DNA of 9,278 nucleotides, taken from the NCBI GenBank assembly GCA_018400545.1, contig JAGYLT010000078.1, positions 1-9,278 on the forward strand, given 5' to 3'. Numbering within the stretch: position 1 is the first letter of the stretch; the number at the start of each line of letters is the position of its first letter. Of this stretch, positions 1 through 9,064 are shown piece by piece. Source of the DNA: Bacteroidales bacterium (GTDB lineage: Bacteria > Bacteroidota > Bacteroidia > Bacteroidales > 4484-276). Both the position numbers and the translations under genes were made by a program. The notes under the pieces were generated by a model. It made no database searches and was not told the origin of the DNA. It worked only from the letters and a program-made list of their open reading frames with translations.

Positions 1-2504
1 ACATAGCGGATATCACCGGGCTGGGCTTCGGCTCCGAGAGCAGCCTGCGAAGGATGTCTATCAACATCTGCCTGGGTCTGGAAGATTCCATCGGTCTGAT
101 ATCCGTAGAAATAACCAATGGGGAAACCAACTTCCATACGTGCCGGCAGTGGTTGGCCAACGCCGAAGCTACCGCCTTCAACAAATCCGGTTCCGTTATT
201 AACTTCCGTTACTTCGTTTTTGAGGGCGGTGAGGTTATAATTAACCTGGTAGCTAAAATCATTTCCAAACATGCCACGATAACCGATTGAAAATTCGAAA
301 CCACTGTTGCGTACTGTACCTGCGTTAGCTGTTGGAGGTGCAGCACCCGGAGCAGATGTTCCGAAAATACCTGAAACCGGAATGTTGCTGATAAGCAGAT
401 TGGCCGTTTCTTTATTGAAGTAGTCAGCTGTAATTTGAATTCTATCCATCAGGAAATTCATGTCAACACCAACGCCAAACTGCTTTGATTCTTCCCATTT
501 AATGCTTGGATTTGCCAGTGGTCCGATAGCACGTCCATTCACGATCCCGCCATTTAAAACATATTGTGCCTCACCACTGAGCGTTGAAATGTACATGTAG
601 TCGCCAATTTTATCCGAACCGAGAATACCATAGCTTAACCTGAGTTTCAATAAATTCATTTTTCTGAATTGGTCCATAAATGCCTCATCGGAAATAATCC
701 AACCAACCGTTGCTGATGGGAAGTAAGCAACTGCATTATCAGGGCCAAATTTTGTTGACGCATCCCGACGGATCATTACAGAAGCCAAATATTTTCCCTT
801 GTAATCATACTGCCCACGAGCAAAGTATGACAGCCTGCGCTGATCAAATACATAAGACCCTGTTGTCTTCGACTCAACCAAACCATTTGCAAGGCTTATG
901 TCTGCAAATTCCCACGAGTTGTTTGGAACGTCCCAGCCAGTAGCATTCAAACCATCACCCCAGGTTTTGTAAATTGTTGTACCAACAGTACCTACAATAT
1001 GATGATCTTCAGCAACAGTATTGTCGTAGGTTACAAAAGCATCAAATGTGTAATCATTATAGTTGTTGCGATTCTGAAAAACACTACTACGCGTGATGTT
1101 GAATACTTTTCCGGGGCCATAATCCTCTATCCTGGAAAATGATTTTGATTTATCATTGGTAGTGTTAAAACCAACTCGTGCCGTTGCTGTGAAATGCTGG
1201 GCAAAACTTGCTGTAAGGCCAACATTTCCATTCCACTTGTCAAGATCATATTCATTAAAGGTGTTATCCAGCTGCTGGAGCGGGTTTGCAACCTCGATAC
1301 CCACATCGGCAGGAGCTCTGAAGTAGGTACCATCCGGGTTGAAGATCGGATAGGTTGATGGCATATTCAGCGCGTTGAAAAGCACGGAACCCAAACCGAA
1401 GTCGTTAAATGTTTTACGATCGATATGGGTGTAGGTGAGGGTGGTATTTACTTTTAACCACTCTGTTAAATCAGCTCCCAGGGCAATCCTTGCGGTATTC
1501 CTGTTGTAGCCAGACTTGTCGCCCCCCACAATACCTTCCTGACGGAGGTCGGAGGCACTGATGGAGTAATTCATGTTACTTGACCCACCAGCTACCCTGA
1601 CATCATTATCGAATATCGGGGCTGTTTGGAAAAGTTCATTTTGCCAGTTGGTACCTTCACCCAGACCTGAAACATCAGGATATGGGAGGTCCTGGCCATT
1701 GGCAGCATAACTTTCGTTTAGAATTACTGCGTACTCAGAAGCATTTAACACAGGAAGTTTACGCGTGGTTTGCTGCACACCTGCTGAACTGTTGATATTA
1801 ACAGTGGTAGGCATATCACGCTTACCGCTTTTGGTGGTAACAAGGATAATACCGTTAGCACCTACCGTACCGTAGATAGCAGCCTGGGCATCTTTCAAAA
1901 CCGTAATGGTTTCGATGTCGTTCGGGTTCAGGGTACTTAAATCACCCTGATAACCATCGATGATTACTACAGGCGCAGCATCACCGTTGGTAGAAATACC
2001 ACGAATCCTGATGTCGAGCCCGGCACCGGGAGCACCTGATTGCGAAGTTACGTTAACACCTGTCACCGTACCCTGAAGCGCTTCTTCCACCTTTACAGGT
2101 TTCAGTTTGTCGATTGTTTTGGAACCAACTGTTGAAACAGAGCCGGTAACATCCTTTTTCTTTTGCACACCGTAACCAATCACCACCACTTCTTCCAGAG
2201 CGGTGGATTCAGACTCTAAGGTTACATCAATGGATGCCTGTCCTGTGTACTTGACCTCTTGCGAACTCATTCCGATAAATGAAAACACAAGCGTAGAGTC
2301 CATTGGAACATTTTGCAAAGTGTAATTACCATCGATGTCGGTAGTGGTACCATTAAAGGTGCCCTTAACAAGCACCGTCACACCGGGGATGCCCAAACCG
2401 TCATCCGCCGAAATCACAACACCGGATACAGTGCCACTCTGCGCAAAGGCAGACAGGCCGTACACCAGCATTGCAATCATCATTAAAGTAAGTTTTCTCA
2501 TCAT
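1..2504 (-). CDS. SusC/RagA-family TonB-linked outer membrane receptor, partial (C-terminus off left edge)
   Basis: This is a TonB-dependent channel that imports glycan fragments across the outer membrane, normally capped by a SusD lipoprotein. I translated the minus strand from 2504 and found 834 codons without a stop to the window edge. Family members are usually about 1000 residues, so part of the barrel C-terminus is missing. Visible in order: a signal peptide (about 1-21, ending SAFA before Q22), a carboxypeptidase-regulatory-like beta-sandwich (about 25-98), the conserved LEEVVVIGYGVQKKKDVTG linker/TonB-box region (103-121), a plug domain (to about 228) ending AIYGTVGANGIILVTTKSG, then barrel strands including a DLRQEGIVGG-type segment. 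No STN domain is present. The usual Arg in the plug motif YGxRGANG is Val214. Two ATGs are adjacent; the first (2504) is chosen, and 2501 is equally possible. The leader is AT-rich without a Shine-Dalgarno sequence. It is divergent from the GH16 gene and shares a promoter architecture with it. The family call is secure; the substrate (beta-glucan) is inferred from the neighbour. Confidence 0.95.
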   Translation of the reverse strand, partial: MMRKLTLMMIAMLVYGLSAFAQSGTVSGVVISADDGLGIPGVTVLVKGTFNGTTTDIDGNYTLQNVPMDSTLVFSFIGMSSQEVKYTGQASIDVTLESESTALEEVVVIGYGVQKKKDVTGSVSTVGSKTIDKLKPVKVEEALQGTVTGVNVTSQSGAPGAGLDIRIRGISTNGDAAPVVIIDGYQGDLSTLNPNDIETITVLKDAQAAIYGTVGANGIILVTTKSGKRDMPTTVNINSSAGVQQTTRKLPVLNASEYAVILNESYAANGQDLPYPDVSGLGEGTNWQNELFQTAPIFDNDVRVAGGSSNMNYSISASDLRQEGIVGGDKSGYNRNTARIALGADLTEWLKVNTTLTYTHIDRKTFNDFGLGSVLFNALNMPSTYPIFNPDGTYFRAPADVGIEVANPLQQLDNTFNEYDLDKWNGNVGLTASFAQHFTATARVGFNTTNDKSKSFSRIEDYGPGKVFNITRSSVFQNRNNYNDYTFDAFVTYDNTVAEDHHIVGTVGTTIYKTWGDGLNATGWDVPNNSWEFADISLANGLVESKTTGSYVFDQRRLSYFARGQYDYKGKYLASVMIRRDASTKFGPDNAVAYFPSATVGWIISDEAFMDQFRKMNLLKLRLSYGILGSDKIGDYMYISTLSGEAQYVLNGGIVNGRAIGPLANPSIKWEESKQFGVGVDMNFLMDRIQITADYFNKETANLLISNIPVSGIFGTSAPGAAPPTANAGTVRNSGFEFSIGYRGMFGNDFSYQVNYNLTALKNEVTEVNNGTGFVEGGSFGVGQPLPARMEVGFPIGYFYGYQTDGIFQTQADVDRHPSQAALGAEAQPGDIRY

Positions 2505-2576: not shown

Positions 2577-2584
2577 CAAATAAT
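2577..2584 (-). promoter_or_regulatory. Putative -7 promoter box of susC (ATTATTTG)
   Basis: On the minus strand this reads ATTATTTG, keeping the TTTG end of the Bacteroidota -7 consensus TAnnTTTG but not its TA exactly. It lies 33 bp downstream of the GATGTA operator, and the same octamer lies 33 bp downstream of the operator in front of the GH16 gene. There is no clear TTTG at the expected -33 position, which fits a promoter that needs an activator. The implied 5' leader is roughly 65-70 nt. Confidence 0.5.
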
Positions 2585-2617
2585 TGATATGCTCAAAAAC
2601 TCAGCATGCCGAATTAT

Positions 2618-2640
2618 TAACTACATCTTTATTACATCAT
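2618..2640 (-). promoter_or_regulatory. Putative activator operator upstream of susC (GATGTA direct repeat)
   Basis: Read on the minus strand, this 23-bp element is ATGATGTA-N5-GATGTAGTTA. It contains two GATGTA half-sites in direct orientation, with starts 11 bp apart. The element at 3168-3190 on the plus strand matches it at 18 of 23 positions, and all five mismatches fall in the central N5. It ends 113 bp before the susC start codon and exactly 33 bp before an ATTATTTG box. The likely binder is the adjacent LuxR-type regulator; that link is inference. Confidence 0.7.
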
Positions 2641-3024
2641 ACTAATTGTAATATTTTGATTTTGTACACCTTAAAAATAAATATTTGTATGTTTTATAAT
2701 TTCACAAGAAAAATTGTAGATGCATCATCAGGAAAGATGAAAATATCAATAAAAAAATGAAACTGGCATCCAAAATATAAATCTGTAAAATTGATAGAGA
2801 CGGATTTGAATGTAAAACGGGTAAAATTAAAAGCCAGTTTATTGCTTCACAAGTCTGACATTTTCACTTCCAGAATTCGCGTAACCGCATCATCAATCCG
2901 GATTTTGACAGGTGCATCTGCGTTCAGTTAACAGGGCAGATAAAATAGCGGCAAAATAAAAAGCTGAATAAAACAGAATAAAACCTTTTCATTTTTATCA
3001 AATTCTAAGTACGTAAAGTTAATC

Positions 3025-3033
3025 ATGATGTAG
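3025..3033 (+). promoter_or_regulatory. Possible extra GATGTAG half-site
   Basis: ATGATGTAG here matches the first half of the operator consensus, but no second GATGTA follows at the 11-bp spacing and no ATTATTTG follows at the expected distance. It overlaps one of two AATCATGA direct repeats (3021-3028 and 3044-3051). It may be an auxiliary weak site or chance. Confidence 0.25.
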
Positions 3034-3167
3034 CTGATCAATAAATCATGAAATTATTGAGACAGGTATTTAACGGATTAAAATTGTTTTGGCAAACCTC
3101 AAAAAATATTATATTATATTGATTTTAAAGCTTTTAATGCAAATCATTACCATACACCTATCCGGGC

Positions 3168-3190
3168 ATGATGTACATTTGATGTAGTTA
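3168..3190 (+). promoter_or_regulatory. Putative activator operator upstream of the GH16 gene (GATGTA direct repeat)
   Basis: This is the plus-strand copy of ATGATGTA-N5-GATGTAGTTA, with GATGTA half-sites starting at 3170 and 3181, 11 bp apart. It matches the susC-side element at 18 of 23 positions, all mismatches being in the N5. It ends 107 bp before the GH16 start codon (113 bp for susC) and 33 bp before ATTATTTG. If the octamer is the -7 box, the operator would cover roughly -67 to -45, a normal location for an activator. Confidence 0.7.
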
Positions 3191-3223
3191 GTCTGTCAAA
3201 TTTATGTAATTATTAATGGGGAG

Positions 3224-3231
3224 ATTATTTG
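3224..3231 (+). promoter_or_regulatory. Putative -7 promoter box of the GH16 gene (ATTATTTG)
   Basis: This octamer is identical to the one in front of susC and sits at the identical 33-bp distance from the operator, although the spacers do not resemble each other. It resembles the Bacteroidota -7 element only partly (TTTG retained). Transcription would begin a few bases downstream, leaving a leader of about 60-65 nt. A TACATTTG at 3174-3181 fits TAnnTTTG better, but lies inside the operator and is not conserved on the susC side. Confidence 0.5.
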
Positions 3232-3297
3232 GATTTCGAAATTTCAATAACGATTTTTACAGGAATTTTTAAATTCAAAATTTAATTATCAGCAACT

Positions 3298-5964
3298 ATG
3301 AAGAATCATCTTACCTTATTATTACGCGCAGCAACAACAATACTTTTTCTGCTTTCGATTTCGATTCAGGGATTTACACAGATCGGAAACCTGATCTGGG
3401 AAGAGCAGTTTGAAAACCTTGACAACTGGATAATTGAAACCGGAAATGGAGCCTGGGGCTGGGGCAACGGAGAGCTTGAATTTTATAAGGCTGAAAATGC
3501 TGAGATTGCCGAAATTCCCGGCGAACCCGGAAGCCAGGCCCTTAAGATTACCGCCAAAGAAGAGTCAGGCCCGGGTATTGTTGACCAATGGGGGAATCCA
3601 TTATATTATACTTCAGCAAGGCTTAACACCAAATCAAAGGTTTCTGTAAAATATGGAATGATCGAAACCCGTGTAAAAATTCCCGATCTTGATTTAGGTG
3701 GATGGCCTGCTGTATGGTTGCTGGGAACCTCCAATTACGCCTGGCCAAGGTGTGGCGAAATAGATATGATGGAAATGGGATATACCAAAGCATTCAGGGA
3801 TTTGCACGATGAGCACAATGGCGGTAACGGGCAGGACAATTCTACCGTAAATCAGATGATTGGGGCAAATGCTATTTTCTATTCCGAAGATGCCATCACG
3901 CCCGAAAATCCATCAGGCGCAGCAAGTCTTTCCTGGGACCCGGATGATGAGTTTTGCAGGCCTTATTACAATTATAATCCACCTCTGACCGATCGCTTTT
4001 TAATTTATCGCACATACTGGGACGAAGAAAGCCTGCGCTTTACCGTTGAAGACCAGGGCGTTGAATATGATCTTTATACCGAGCCTTTTTATTTCGACAG
4101 CAATTCGGCAGAGTTTCAGGAACCCTTTTACCTGATTGCCAACTTTGCCATTGGTGGTGCTTTTACCGATGCATACAATCTCGGCAATCCGGGCAGCGGA
4201 CTTCCGGTTTCAATGCCTTTCCCGGCTGAGATGTACCTGGATTACATAAAAGTTTATGAATGGAACGGTAAAGGCGAGGTACAGGTTGGCCCACCTGATT
4301 TTCAATCAGGAACATTTGGGGTTTTTACGGATGAAACGATTGTGGATAATGGTTTATTTACAGAAGGAATGGACGCTGAAATTTATGTTTGGGAAGGCAC
4401 ATTGTCTGAAGGCTCAATTCCACCTTTCGAGGGAGAAAATGGTTTGTCCTTTGTTACCAATGGCCTGGGCTGGTTTGGTGCCGGGATAATGTCGGTGCAG
4501 CCGGTGAACCTTTTCAATTTTGGTGATGGTTTCCTGAAATTCAGGATTAAAATCCCTGCCTATGTGAGTTTTCAGATTGGCATCATTGATGCCTGGGGAA
4601 ATCAGAATTATGTGGAATTCCCGGCCAACCAAACCACTTATGGCCTGGAAAGAAACGGTGACTGGGGGCAGGCTGCAATTCCTGTGGAGGATATCCGTGG
4701 CGCGTTGATCGATTTACGGATGTTAAGTTATGAATTTGTGATTCTGGAAGTTAATGGCACTTCCTGCGAATTTGCTGTGGATGATATTTACTGGGAAGGC
4801 GGTGTTGCAGCCGGGGAAACACATACCATAAAATTGCCTGCCGGCTGGTCAGGGCTGTCAAGCTATATAATGCCTGAAAATAGCGACATAGAACCCATTT
4901 TTGGAAGCATACTGAATGAACTTGAGATTGTACTTACAGAAGATGAAATGTTCTATCCGGCCTATAACATCAATACCATCGGCAACTGGGAACAACATTC
5001 GGCTTACAAAGTAAAAACAAACACGAAAGTCAGCCTGGATATCAATGGACTTGCGGACGGAAATAAAACCCTGCAACTTGCTGAAGGCTGGAACCTGATC
5101 CCGGTGATATCATCCTGTCAAGCGGATGTAGAAACTTTGTTTGAACCCATAGAAGCTGATCTTCAAATTGTAAAAGAAGTGGCCGGCTACGGCGTTTACT
5201 GGCCGGCTATGGGCATTAACAACCTGGGTACATTAAATCCGGGAGAGGCCTATTATGTTTCGATGACCAGTGCAGATGCTGTTACTTTTGAGGATTGCCA
5301 AAAAAGCACAGCGCCTGCACCTAAGTTTGCGTTTCCACAGAATCCGGCATGGAATCCGGTACAACAAACAGCAGGCAATCACGTGATCGGCATCCCGGAG
5401 AATGCCATGATTAATCTTGAACCCGGAGACTACATTGGCGTATTTACGACCGATGGCATCTGCGCCGGACAAATCCGCATCGATACACAGAAAAATCAGC
5501 GTGCTATGATTGCTTTTGGAGCGGACAATTTTGGCACACAGCTTCAGGGTTTTGAAACCGGCGAGCGGTTCAGCTTTAAACTTTACAAAACTGCTACCGG
5601 TGAAGAGCTTGAACTTTTAACTGAATTTGATGCATCCACGTCCGGCGCCAACGGCTTGTTCGAGGAAAACGGAGTTTCTGTCATCAACGGCTTTAAAACT
5701 ACAGGCGGTTTTGGAGCAACTGGCTTATCCCCAAATGACATTGATTTGCATCCAAACCCAACCAAAGGAAGCTTTACAATTGTTGGAATTTCAAAGGATG
5801 CACAGGTTGAAATATTTAACATGCAGAGCCAGGTAATCAGGCGTGAAATAATCAACACAGACCAGGGCAACCGCTTTAGCCTTGCCGGACAGCAGCCGGG
5901 GGTTTACATAATCCGCATTCAAAGCAGAGATGGGCAGGTGTACAGGAAGTTGATTTTGGAATAG
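3298..5964 (+). CDS. Secreted GH16 laminarinase-like endo-beta-glucanase with T9SS sorting domain
   Basis: The predicted activity is endo-hydrolysis of beta-1,3 (or mixed-linkage) glucan outside the cell. The 888-residue protein has a signal peptide (about 1-28), then a GH16 jelly-roll (about 30-321). The catalytic motif GEIDMMEM gives nucleophile E154, D156 and acid/base E159. Supporting family blocks are GWGNGELEFY (54-63), YGMIETRVKIP (119-129), GGWPAVWLLG (134-143), PFYLIANFAIGG (276-287) and YLDYIKVYE (313-321). Residues about 335-500 form a beta-sandwich domain ending AVDDIYWEGG, probably carbohydrate-binding. Residues 510-664 are two copies of a GW-starting module, and about 690-800 another T9SS-associated module. 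Residues 815-888 are a type A sorting tail (HPNPTKGSFTI to the C-terminal KLILE), so it should pass through T9SS and be surface-anchored or released. Between E159 and the next conserved strand lies a long loop rich in Asp, Asn and His, and the usual FHxY histidine is Leu235. No Shine-Dalgarno sequence is seen; the start is set by the signal peptide. Other GH16 specificities (agar, porphyran) are less likely but not excluded. Confidence 0.93.
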   Translation: MKNHLTLLLRAATTILFLLSISIQGFTQIGNLIWEEQFENLDNWIIETGNGAWGWGNGELEFYKAENAEIAEIPGEPGSQALKITAKEESGPGIVDQWGNPLYYTSARLNTKSKVSVKYGMIETRVKIPDLDLGGWPAVWLLGTSNYAWPRCGEIDMMEMGYTKAFRDLHDEHNGGNGQDNSTVNQMIGANAIFYSEDAITPENPSGAASLSWDPDDEFCRPYYNYNPPLTDRFLIYRTYWDEESLRFTVEDQGVEYDLYTEPFYFDSNSAEFQEPFYLIANFAIGGAFTDAYNLGNPGSGLPVSMPFPAEMYLDYIKVYEWNGKGEVQVGPPDFQSGTFGVFTDETIVDNGLFTEGMDAEIYVWEGTLSEGSIPPFEGENGLSFVTNGLGWFGAGIMSVQPVNLFNFGDGFLKFRIKIPAYVSFQIGIIDAWGNQNYVEFPANQTTYGLERNGDWGQAAIPVEDIRGALIDLRMLSYEFVILEVNGTSCEFAVDDIYWEGGVAAGETHTIKLPAGWSGLSSYIMPENSDIEPIFGSILNELEIVLTEDEMFYPAYNINTIGNWEQHSAYKVKTNTKVSLDINGLADGNKTLQLAEGWNLIPVISSCQADVETLFEPIEADLQIVKEVAGYGVYWPAMGINNLGTLNPGEAYYVSMTSADAVTFEDCQKSTAPAPKFAFPQNPAWNPVQQTAGNHVIGIPENAMINLEPGDYIGVFTTDGICAGQIRIDTQKNQRAMIAFGADNFGTQLQGFETGERFSFKLYKTATGEELELLTEFDASTSGANGLFEENGVSVINGFKTTGGFGATGLSPNDIDLHPNPTKGSFTIVGISKDAQVEIFNMQSQVIRREIINTDQGNRFSLAGQQPGVYIIRIQSRDGQVYRKLILE
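4825..5289 (+). repeat. Tandem duplicated protein module within the GH16 enzyme
   Basis: Residues 510-583 and 591-664 of the enzyme align as two divergent copies. Shared landmarks are TIKLPAGW / TLQLAEGW at the start, DIEPIFGSI / DVETLFEPI, LEIV / LQIV, YPAYNINTIG / YWPAMGINNLG and SAYKV / EAYYV. Identity is low, so this is an old duplication visible at the protein level only. Such modules are common between catalytic regions and sorting tails in T9SS cargo of Bacteroidales-like organisms; their function is unknown to me and they may act as spacers or in adhesion. Confidence 0.75.
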
Positions 5965-6169: not shown

Positions 6170-6174
6170 TTAAA
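6126..6174. repeat. CTCTGTG-type short intergenic repeat flanked by GTAAAAT direct repeats
   Basis: The core CCGCTGTGCCTCTGTGGTTA (6141-6160) is built of heptad-like CTGTGCC/TCTGTGG units. It is flanked by GTAAAATTTTAAA (6126-6138) and GTAAAATGTTAAA (6162-6174), identical at 12 of 13 positions. The two flanks can also pair imperfectly. The second flank overlaps the TAA stop of the regulator (6170-6172). On the minus strand the core begins TAACCACAGAGGCACAG, a motif I remember as recurring between genes in many environmental bacterial genomes; that memory is not verified here. Confidence 0.5.
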
Positions 6175-9064
6175 ACCCCATGATGAACTCGGTGAGGTTG
6201 GTATCGTGTTCGAGGTTGAGTTTTTTACGCAGGCGATAGCGGCTGATCTCAACGCCCCTGGTGGAAATATTCATCAGTGTGGCGATTTCCTTGCTGGAAA
6301 TATTCAATCGCAGGTAAGCACAAAGCTTCATCTCGCGCGGCGTAAGGTCGGGGTATTTTTCTTTAAGTCGTTTCAGGAACTCTTCGTGTACACTTTCAAA
6401 ATGCTTCTCAAAAACCTCCCACTGCTGCTCCGTATCCATCTCACGGTTAATCTTTCTGATCATCGAATTGATGTAATTGGTAATGAGATCGTCGTTGATC
6501 TCTTTTGATAATTTATTCAGATCCCTCTTGATTGCGCTCAGCGACTTACTCTTCTGAATCATTTGCATAGTACTGTTGGCCAGTTCCTTATCCTTCTGTT
6601 TCATTTCGGCCCGTAGATTTTCGTTTTTCAGCCTGATTACCTCCTTCTCCGCTTCGAGCGCCTCTGTTTGCAGTTGCTTTTCACGGTCCCTGAACAAACG
6701 CTTCTGACGTTCCTCCTCCAATTGCTTGGATTTCTCCATGCGCATCCGCACGTACTTACCCATCAGAAAAACAACTCCCATAAAAGCCAGAAAATACAAA
6801 ACATAACCTTCCCAACTCAGGTACCATGGCGGATCAATCACAAATGCATATTCTGAGGTATTACTTTGGGTGCCAAACAGGTTTCTGGCCTTAACTTTAA
6901 ACAGATATCTTCCGTGTCTGAGATTTGTAAACTCACGCATCGCCCTGTTAGTCCAGTCCTGCCACTCCTCATCAAAACCCTGAAGCTGGGTCGAAAACAT
7001 CATCTGACCGGGATTCTCAAAATCATTGGCCGAAAATTCAAACCTGATTTGATTAAATTTAAAAGGTATCGCAGGAATTTGCTGAGGTTTACTCAGATAT
7101 CCTTTCATTAATGCGGAATCAGCTCCGTGGAGATCTACCCTGCGAATGAAAGATGAAAACTCCTGTTGATAATCCTTAGGATATTCAGGGGTGTAATGGA
7201 CAAACCCATTCTGAACACCAAAAAACACATGATCTTCATCCATCGGGTAAACAAATTGAAATCCTTTAACAAAGAAGCCTTTCAGTTCCCGAAAAGGCAC
7301 ATCAACACGCGCATAGCTACCATCCTCCTGCAGCCTGAAAACCCCTGCCTCATCCACCGTAAAATACCACACATTGTCATCTGCATCCTCTTTGAGTAAA
7401 CTGATATTCTTACCGGGAAAAGTGCTGTTGAGGTTTTCATCGGGGAAAAAACTGTCGCTTTTTGGATCATAGGAATAGAGACCATAATCAGTGGTTGTAA
7501 ATATGGGTTGGCCGGCAACCTCACAAACATTAATATTCTTATTGGATTTAAATCCTGAATTCTCATTGTAAAACCGGACTTCTGTTACGCTGTCGTAATT
7601 CGGATCAAACTGAACTTTAAATACCCCTTTATATCCGTGGGCCATCCACATGGCATTGTTTCCTGCATTGGCCAGTGATCTTGAAGACTCCTTAAATCCC
7701 GGAATTACTTTACCTTTTTGCCATTTGTTATTCCTTTTTTCAAATTTTACAAGGTTGGTGTAGGTTCCGCAAATCAATACATCCGGATTGTTTTCAGGCC
7801 GGGTAAACGTCCATCCGCCCTGCACATCTGATACCCTGGCCGCCTTTGCACCATCAATTGTAAAAACTCCCGAGTTATGGCCACAGAATAATGTGCCATC
7901 AATATTTTTCAGCTCCCAAACCTGACCCTGCGTGCCGGGGACAAGCTGAAACCTTTGATTTGCAAACCCGTTATCAAGCGCTTCCCAGTTGGCATAAAAC
8001 AACCCCCGGTTTGTACCAAGATATAAAATACCTTTATGCAGGATGGCAGCATATCCGGCGCTAAGCCCGTTAAACGAAGAAAAATAGCTGAGTGGTGAAT
8101 TGGTCTCCACATAGTCGATACCATTGTCGAGCCCAAGCCAGAGGTTTCGGTACTGATCCACTTTTATGCTCAGCACGGTACTATTCTGCAATCCGCTTTC
8201 TATGCCAACTTTTTGCAGAATTTTTCCGGCTGTATCGCAAACGAGCAACCCATCCTGAATGGTCCCGAAAAGATAAGTGGTTTCATCAAAATTGGCCCCA
8301 CAATACACCTGGTTTTTCGTCAGGAATTCTGATGCCGGGTTTTCCCATGCTTTAAGATCCAGGCCGTCGAACTCAAAAATACCTTCACTCGCTGTGGCGA
8401 TGAGTAGATTATTTCCCTTTGGCAGGATTGACCAAATGAGCTTACCTTTTAAATAATCAGTGCCGTGAACTTTAATGAGGCGTTCACCTGCAAGCCGAAA
8501 AAGGCCTTCATCCTGATCGTTGATGTATAATTCACCATTTACAAGGAACGAAAAATGGAATTTTCCGGGCAGGTCGATGGTTTGGATTTGCCCATCCTTA
8601 TAAATCATCAATTGCTGGAAGGTCTGAAAAACAATCCCCTGAGGCATTTCATAAATCCGCCAGACATCTTCAAAATTTCGTTCTTGTTCAGGCATTAAAT
8701 CATGCAGGGCATGAAATTTCAATTCCCCTTGATTATCCGGAAAAAAATAGCCAAACTGGTTGAAAGCCCCGGCATAGATGCGGCCATCAGATGTGGCTTT
8801 AACGCTTCTTACGACAGTTCTGTTAGGCATCGGATATTTTCGCCAGCTCAAACCGTCAAACTCAACCACTCCATCATTATTGGCAAAATATGCCAGGCCA
8901 TTGGGGCTGATGTCGATCATCCAGGTTTGCGAGCCGGCCTGCAGGGTAGAAATGGAATAATTTCTTGTGAAAGGTATTCCGATGTTTTTAATCAGTGCAT
9001 GGCCGGACTGACCTGAAACCAGAACAAAAATAAAAATGAAAATATGGGTCAATCTGAAATGCAT
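6170..9064 (-). CDS. Membrane-spanning sensor-regulator: beta-propeller, Y_Y_Y domain, coiled coil, LuxR-type HTH
   Basis: This is a one-component transmembrane transcription regulator of the type linked to glycan loci in Bacteroidota. With the start at 9064 it has 964 residues: signal peptide (about 1-23), a periplasmic propeller with Reg_prop-like repeats (clear example SGLQNSTVLSIKVDQYRNLWLG, about 290-311, of which only the core is certain), a Y_Y_Y domain (about 678-744, with LQGFDEEWQDWT and LRHGRYLFKVKARN), one membrane helix (about 752-772), a charged coiled coil (about 774-860) and a C-terminal LuxR-type HTH (about 901-956, LTPREMKLCAYLRLN then SSKEIATLMNISTRGVEISR). No histidine kinase or receiver domain is present, so signalling is presumably direct through the membrane. 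The frame is open to an ATG at 9121, but the first 19 residues there would precede a normal signal peptide, and 9064 follows a weak TTAGG. It converges on the GH16 gene. No GATGTA site is seen in its own leader, so autoregulation is not indicated. The ligand is inferred only from context. Confidence 0.92.
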   Translation of the reverse strand: MHFRLTHIFIFIFVLVSGQSGHALIKNIGIPFTRNYSISTLQAGSQTWMIDISPNGLAYFANNDGVVEFDGLSWRKYPMPNRTVVRSVKATSDGRIYAGAFNQFGYFFPDNQGELKFHALHDLMPEQERNFEDVWRIYEMPQGIVFQTFQQLMIYKDGQIQTIDLPGKFHFSFLVNGELYINDQDEGLFRLAGERLIKVHGTDYLKGKLIWSILPKGNNLLIATASEGIFEFDGLDLKAWENPASEFLTKNQVYCGANFDETTYLFGTIQDGLLVCDTAGKILQKVGIESGLQNSTVLSIKVDQYRNLWLGLDNGIDYVETNSPLSYFSSFNGLSAGYAAILHKGILYLGTNRGLFYANWEALDNGFANQRFQLVPGTQGQVWELKNIDGTLFCGHNSGVFTIDGAKAARVSDVQGGWTFTRPENNPDVLICGTYTNLVKFEKRNNKWQKGKVIPGFKESSRSLANAGNNAMWMAHGYKGVFKVQFDPNYDSVTEVRFYNENSGFKSNKNINVCEVAGQPIFTTTDYGLYSYDPKSDSFFPDENLNSTFPGKNISLLKEDADDNVWYFTVDEAGVFRLQEDGSYARVDVPFRELKGFFVKGFQFVYPMDEDHVFFGVQNGFVHYTPEYPKDYQQEFSSFIRRVDLHGADSALMKGYLSKPQQIPAIPFKFNQIRFEFSANDFENPGQMMFSTQLQGFDEEWQDWTNRAMREFTNLRHGRYLFKVKARNLFGTQSNTSEYAFVIDPPWYLSWEGYVLYFLAFMGVVFLMGKYVRMRMEKSKQLEEERQKRLFRDREKQLQTEALEAEKEVIRLKNENLRAEMKQKDKELANSTMQMIQKSKSLSAIKRDLNKLSKEINDDLITNYINSMIRKINREMDTEQQWEVFEKHFESVHEEFLKRLKEKYPDLTPREMKLCAYLRLNISSKEIATLMNISTRGVEISRYRLRKKLNLEHDTNLTEFIMGF

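Follow-up and report, generated by a model that had tools for sequence, protein, structure and literature searches.

In this work we analysed a 9,278-nucleotide stretch of Bacteroidales DNA (hereafter the window), in which two copies of a gapped element point in opposite directions, one towards a susC-type gene and the other towards a GH16 glycoside hydrolase gene. These elements are likely to belong to a ComA-like tandem operator made of GATGTA boxes, through which the adjacent membrane regulator of LuxR type would activate both promoters. The computations delivered the sequences themselves, their association with this type of regulator, the helical spacings of the boxes, a fixed distance to TAnnTTTG in relatives and a predicted HTH fold. 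Taken alone the window is suggestive, not decisive, and the strong support is comparative.

Two facing elements in the window

The genes of the window form a cluster that probably digests a polysaccharide, and the intergenic gap between susC and the GH16 gene is the location of both elements. A pattern scan of the window finds ATGATGTA-N5-GATGTAGTTA-N33-ATTATTTG at 2640-2577 on the minus strand and at 3168-3231 on the plus strand, with 0 mismatches, as the first-pass annotation had described. The features are listed below; offsets are counted from the first GATGTA, and the 5' end of the regulator gene is set at its first ATG (9064), the ORF list beginning at a TTG (9121).

3..2504, minus strand: partial gene for a SusC/RagA-type outer-membrane transporter, putative target 1 (Pfam, NCBIfam TIGR04056)
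3298..5964, plus strand: gene for a GH16 glycoside hydrolase with a type IX secretion tail, putative target 2 (Pfam PF00722, TIGR04183)
6170..9064, minus strand: gene for a membrane regulator with Reg_prop, Y_Y_Y, a long helix and a LuxR/GerE HTH (domain matches)
2618..2640, minus strand: outer pair facing susC, GATGTA at 2638-2633 and 2627-2622, 11 bp apart, within ATGATGTA-N5-GATGTAGTTA
3168..3190, plus strand: outer pair facing GH16, GATGTA at 3170-3175 and 3181-3186
2589..2605, minus strand: putative degenerate inner pair on the susC side, GCTGAG-N5-GAGCAT at offsets 33 and 44 (3/6 and 2/6 to GATGTA), weak by itself and placed by register
3203..3219, plus strand: putative degenerate inner pair on the GH16 side, TATGTA (5/6)-N5-TAATGG (1/6) at offsets 33 and 44, placed by register
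2577..2584, minus strand: ATTATTTG on the susC side, taken as the probable -33 element; counted from the last box, its TTG is at +15
3224..3231, plus strand: ATTATTTG on the GH16 side, assigned to the -33 position; the same octamer is at offset 54 in locus L084 and 53 in L161
2549..2556, minus strand: candidate -7 position on the susC side, TTATTTCG, +38 from the last box, 4/6 to TAnnTTTG, placed by the register of relatives
3252..3259, plus strand: candidate -7 position on the GH16 side, GATTTTTA, 4/6 to TAnnTTTG, placed by the register of relatives

Other parts of the earlier description stand as well: the N5 is unmatched between the two elements (0/5 positions identical), and the distances from operator to start codon are 113 bp for susC and 107 bp for GH16. 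The 18-base gapped pattern, allowing up to three mismatches, occurs 0.01 times per dinucleotide shuffle of the window, a figure to be read with the fact that the pattern was derived from the same window on which it was tested. Of 5000 shuffles, 29 have the same octamer at one shared offset past both operators. Tests that presuppose no pattern are much less favourable: in the intergenic region the best ungapped 64-mer identity of one strand against the other is 40, a value reached in 36 of 200 shuffles, and the best 23-mer identity is 18, equal to the shuffle mean (18.1). Such unexceptional whole-strand identity would suit a functionless likeness, due to chance or to one promoter having recently been copied to the other gene. 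We regard this explanation as very improbable, since the 33-bp spacers, which the first reading had rightly called unrelated in appearance, are identical at only 10 of 33 positions, and since the element and its register recur in distant genomes.

A third ATGATGTA lies at 3025-3032 (plus strand), without a second box. Downstream of it, on the same strand, are a promoter-like ATTATTGA (3053-3060), 18 bp and then TAAAATTG (3079-3086); the segment 3025-3086 is possibly a second, upstream promoter directed towards GH16.

Occurrence of the pattern in other genomes

In a collection of species-genome contigs the exact pattern is present in 16 stretches, 10 from Bacteroidota and 6 from elsewhere. The ten Bacteroidota stretches come from Bacteroidales, Chitinophagaceae, Saprospiraceae, Flexithrix and others, and in 10/10 the pattern is aimed at a start codon, which lies 101-167 bp downstream when counted from the first GATGTA. 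The downstream gene is susC-like in five of them (L001, L005, L007, L008 and L014), and a homologue of the window regulator is encoded within the same 8 kb in eight, within a region of 13-20 kb in nine. Each of the ten genomes has a single site when one mismatch is allowed. Outside Bacteroidota the matches are five Nitrosopumilales loci and one Neoehrlichia locus. The Nitrosopumilales matches (L002, L003, L004, L006, L011) were rejected as unrelated: their 18/18 fixed bases overlie the stop codon of one orthologous gene, that is, a conserved coding end.

One of the ten pattern genomes, G004, served to define a larger sample. The 395 genomes of its class contain 23 exact TGATGTA-N5-GATGTAG sites, spread over 18 genomes with one or two each. 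Fourteen of these sites were new to the sample; eight have a start codon 92-162 bp downstream, three lie within open frames of the opposite strand, two have no start codon and one was left out. The regulator closest to that of the window (73% over the last 200 aa) is encoded at L174, positions 8459-11295 (minus strand), where it is split over two overlapping frames in the contig; the L174 site has 2 mismatches.

Reversing the pattern gave 18 matches in the 395 genomes, against 23 forward ones (10 of the 18 are in genomes with a forward match, 8 in genomes without), and one match in the ten pattern genomes; likewise, scores of at least 12 were obtained for 39/80 regulators and for 37/80 with the sequence reversed. 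In our view this control is invalid, since reversal leaves GATGTAG unchanged and sites of the GATGTAGnnntGATGTAGT form therefore match their own control. Dinucleotide shuffles, other spacings and the flanks of other genes were used instead. The control word GTAGTA-N5-GTAGTAG gave 1 exact and 5 one-mismatch matches, and it overlaps the variant GTAG repeats found beside some regulators.

Association with LuxR-type Reg_prop/Y_Y_Y regulators

A motif-blind set was assembled from the regions around 70 regulators, chosen regardless of motif by a regulator search of the 395 genomes and of 59 relatives of G004. In their 600-bp flanks GATGTA-N5-GATGTA is found exactly 19 times, at 16/70 loci, against 0.05 in shuffles, and with at most one mismatch 34 times, at 24/70 loci, against 0.50 (20 rounds). 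The remainder of the same 70 regions is about 15- to 16-fold poorer in pairs per kb than the flanks. The spacer is preferred at five nucleotides, N5 giving 8 exact matches in the first 40 regions and N3, N4, N6 and N7 none. Flanks totalling 24.6 kb beside 20 Reg_prop proteins that have other outputs contain no pair; three of these proteins have an AraC-like C-terminal sequence as judged by eye. All matches listed for 60 regions and the window fall between genes, and every one except two faces a start codon. The two exceptions (L071 at 8394 and L098 at 550, both on the plus strand) sit immediately beyond the regulator's stop codon and face that gene.

The site is also linked to the recognition helix of the regulator. 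It is present for 14 of 20 regulators with the helix RGVEI[SG]RYRLRKKL and for 10 of 50 without, and on the regulator tree the site label changes 19 times, compared with 26.2 when shuffled; related genomes, and sites of one locus, are non-independent samples in these counts. The first-pass annotation had proposed a PUL-specific activator operator. The operator part is strengthened by these data and can be made more precise, as the flanks of LuxR-type regulators carry the site, those of the 20 controls with other outputs do not, and the recognition helix covaries with it. Specificity for one PUL stands in a restricted sense, that of few sites per genome, and the sequence itself recurs across the class. 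The preference for an activator over a repressor is still a reading of the sequence, as our computations give position and not sign.

A pair is absent within 600 bp at 46 of the 70 blind loci, and L099 has the site with no such regulator in 18.5 kb. Both facts would fit an operator that is real and bound by another protein, the adjacent regulator merely travelling along with it. We judge this quite unlikely, because among the Reg_prop genes compared only those of LuxR type carry the site, because the site is linked to the recognition helix, and because the geometry of the pair is known for an HTH of the LuxR/NarL type. The assignment of the site to the regulator beside it appears well supported by association, not proven.

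An out-of-sample test on 20 further, more distant regulators was set beforehand. It shows weak enrichment, with 3 matches in 25.2 kb of flanks (2/20 loci) versus 3 in about 238 kb elsewhere, and the number of loci with a site is well below the prior expectation. Counted by eye, the site occurs for 2/3 regulators with the recognition helix and 0/17 without. Sites of this set overlap those of the 395 genomes (L123, L135, L130, L139), of which they are not a fresh sample. A second pair is present downstream in L210, and in L212 the best one (9/13) is upstream.

Some regulators with other helices have other elements beside them. In L059, L063, L068, L069, L074 and L076 the helix is RGVEIRRYRLRKK or RGIEIRRYRLRKK, and the adjoining conserved element is ATGATGTA-like followed by AATGTAGAG and, in several, by ATTATTTG. 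Regulators with GGVELARYRLRKK (L072, also L065 and L066) have repeats of the GTGTTTTTGTA type, and L072 has two copies of GATGTGTTTTTGTA at a distance of 33 bp. One clade (ILNI..RGVE.SRYRLRKKM; L090, L091, L111, L112) carries GTAG-type boxes (GTTGTAG, GTAGTAG) as direct repeats of 11 bp in place of GATGTA.

A second pair of boxes at helical distances

Relatives have a second pair as well, mostly placed 2, 3 or 5 helical turns further downstream, at offsets of 22, about 30-34, or 53-55. Distances from one GATGTA to another in the flanks are mostly 11, 21-22, 32-33, 43-44 and 54. With the second pair at offset 22 the boxes form four-box arrays, as in L106, L159, L163 and L165. A single universal distance was rejected, since counts at a score of at least 9/13 are spread over 21-22, 30-34, 44, 53-55 and 78 (2). 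The mean-score profile for a second pair has no clear peak, and for one site out of 29 a score of 9 is found upstream. A perfect four-box array like that of L159 was also rejected for the window, where the boxes mismatch at offset 22 on the minus strand.

A guide to the window is L161, which has boxes at 0, 11, 32 and 43 with GCTGAG-N5-GATGTA at 32/43. GCTGAG is common to this locus (offset 32) and to the minus-strand element of the window (offset 33). We infer that the operator of the window is longer than first described, the element being its outer half, and that the so-called spacer contains a degenerate inner pair, a feature absent from the first description of the 33-bp spacer.

Register of the promoter

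The distance from the boxes to the promoter was measured on 44 of the 45 listed sites, L071 having been excluded for its orientation towards the 3' end of the regulator gene; 28 of them have a second pair scoring at least 9/13. In 14 of these 28, TAnnTTTG (at least 5/6) starts 38 bp past the last box and in three 39 bp past it, whatever the spacing of the pairs; a start at 37 or 40 bp is seen in none of them. When the downstream letters are shuffled, a mean of 1.6 sites have TAnnTTTG at 37-39, and at most 8 in 2000 shuffles. TTG is found at +15 from the last box in 10 of the 28. Fourteen sites fall outside this earlier set; five have a second pair of at least 9, and TAnnTTTG is at +38 in three of the five (L125, L137 and L138, not L123 and L135). 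In the distant set L210 contributes the two sites that have a second pair, and neither shows a 5/6 match to TAnnTTTG at +38/39 (4/6 in one, at most 3/6 in the other).

Neither window site is among the 28, and the register proposed for the window rests on L161 and L084. If the last box is that at offset 44, ATTATTTG (54-61) places TTG at +15, and ATTATTTG is then most likely the -33 element, because its TTG lands there as in L084 and L161. In L161, ATTATTTG is at offset 53 and is followed by TATGTTTG at 81. The -7 register of the window, at offset 82, is poor, and from this both window promoters would be weak and in need of an activator.

The first-pass annotation had favoured a promoter with probably no -33 element, in which ATTATTTG itself is the -7 element and the activator replaces the -33 contact. 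The same octamer is indeed at the same offset on both sides, and the match at offset 82 does not exceed 4/6 on either strand, which both agree with that proposal. The relatives do not: counted from their last box, TTG is at +15 and TAnnTTTG at +38/39, and L161 combines the octamer with TATGTTTG in this very register. In ATTATTTG, moreover, no TA stands where TAnnTTTG would require it. The proposal is therefore unlikely, and we retain ATTATTTG as the probable -33 element.

The same geometry bears on the sign of regulation. Pairs that serve repression, or ligand-dependent activation together with repression, instead of plain activation, would be compatible with a computation blind to sign and with a site that is upstream of -33 but abuts it. 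We consider this improbable, as all boxes are upstream of -33, as poor -7 elements suit an activator, and as SusR, a membrane regulator of a starch PUL, is described as an activator (PMC3878776).

Proposed mechanism and wider code

Activation by the adjacent regulator could work as follows. Two direct GATGTA hexamers separated by a 5-bp gap would form a half-operator, in which the boxes, at a distance of 11 bp, share a helix face. A second pair, degenerate in the window, would lie about three turns (33 bp) downstream, with -33 at +15 and -7 at +38 of its last box. The propeller/Y_Y_Y part of the regulator may sense a periplasmic oligosaccharide, and its HTH domains, joined by the long helix, would occupy the two pairs and engage RNA polymerase at the weak promoters. 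One signal would then switch on the importer (susC) and the secreted GH16 enzyme together.

The relatives raise the prospect of an operator code common to the membrane Reg_prop/Y_Y_Y/LuxR regulators of Bacteroidota, in which hexamer-N5-hexamer pairs can be stacked at 2, 3 or 5 turns, the innermost box is always 38-39 bp before TAnnTTTG, and the letters of the boxes change with the recognition helix in sister clades. We hold such a class-wide code to be somewhat more probable than its absence, a grade slightly reduced because the distant-regulator set also missed the +38 rule. Relatives of the window regulator are widespread, 357 of the 395 genomes of G004's class having a match at E 0.001, other Reg_prop architectures included. 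If the code is true, the targets of many unstudied glycan sensors could be read from sequence. A fixed geometry between site and promoter would make regulons predictable and guide the design of glycan-inducible reporters, and would offer a clean case of one HTH acting on direct repeats at several helical spacings.

Comparison with known systems

No published operator for LuxR-type Reg_prop regulators was found in the open full-text literature, which omits most subscription journals. The sensor part of the window regulator is of the Reg_prop/Y_Y_Y type that is also found in HTCS proteins, whose shared sensor domain is termed COG3292 (PMC3878776). It differs from them in having no kinase, receiver or AraC domain, Pfam giving only Reg_prop, Y_Y_Y and GerE (E 0.001). 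The promoter consensus described for Sigma-ABfr of Bacteroidota is TTTG near -33 and TAnnTTTG near -7 (PMC7366714). Relatives of the window show both in fixed register with the operator; in the window the TTTG within ATTATTTG is at the TTG +15 register, as expected of a -33 element in a predicted promoter, and the match to TAnnTTTG at +38 is 4/6 on both strands.

For the SusR-like regulators of Bacteroides, direct repeats have been predicted whose centres are separated by 67 or 77 bp (PMC3878776). The likeness is that of a membrane regulator with a C-terminal HTH, encoded beside susC genes and with a helically phased direct-repeat operator. The spacings of 67 and 77 bp are not those seen here, which are 11 and about 33 bp in the window and 11, 22, 30-34 and 53-55 bp in relatives. 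The C-terminal part of the window regulator scores 33.5 bits against NCBIfam BT3442_fam, far under its cut-off of 940 bits.

The nearest parallel is ComA of Bacillus subtilis, a LuxR/NarL-type protein described as binding direct repeats of hexamer-5 nt-hexamer, with n = 5 optimal (PMC4797271). The window too has two hexamers in the same orientation with a 5-nt spacer, on both sides of the intergenic gap. A tetrahelical HTH of the LuxR/NarL type, which ComA uses for promoter activation, is predicted in the window regulator, and the best PDB sequence match of the window HTH is ComA, a weak one (E 0.02). ComA differs in being a soluble response regulator that recognizes the hexamer TTGCGG and has an inverted repeat upstream (PMC4797271), whereas the type found in the window has no repeats other than the direct-repeat pairs, which are stacked at intervals of 2, 3 or 5 turns, and goes with a membrane-bound one-chain sensor.
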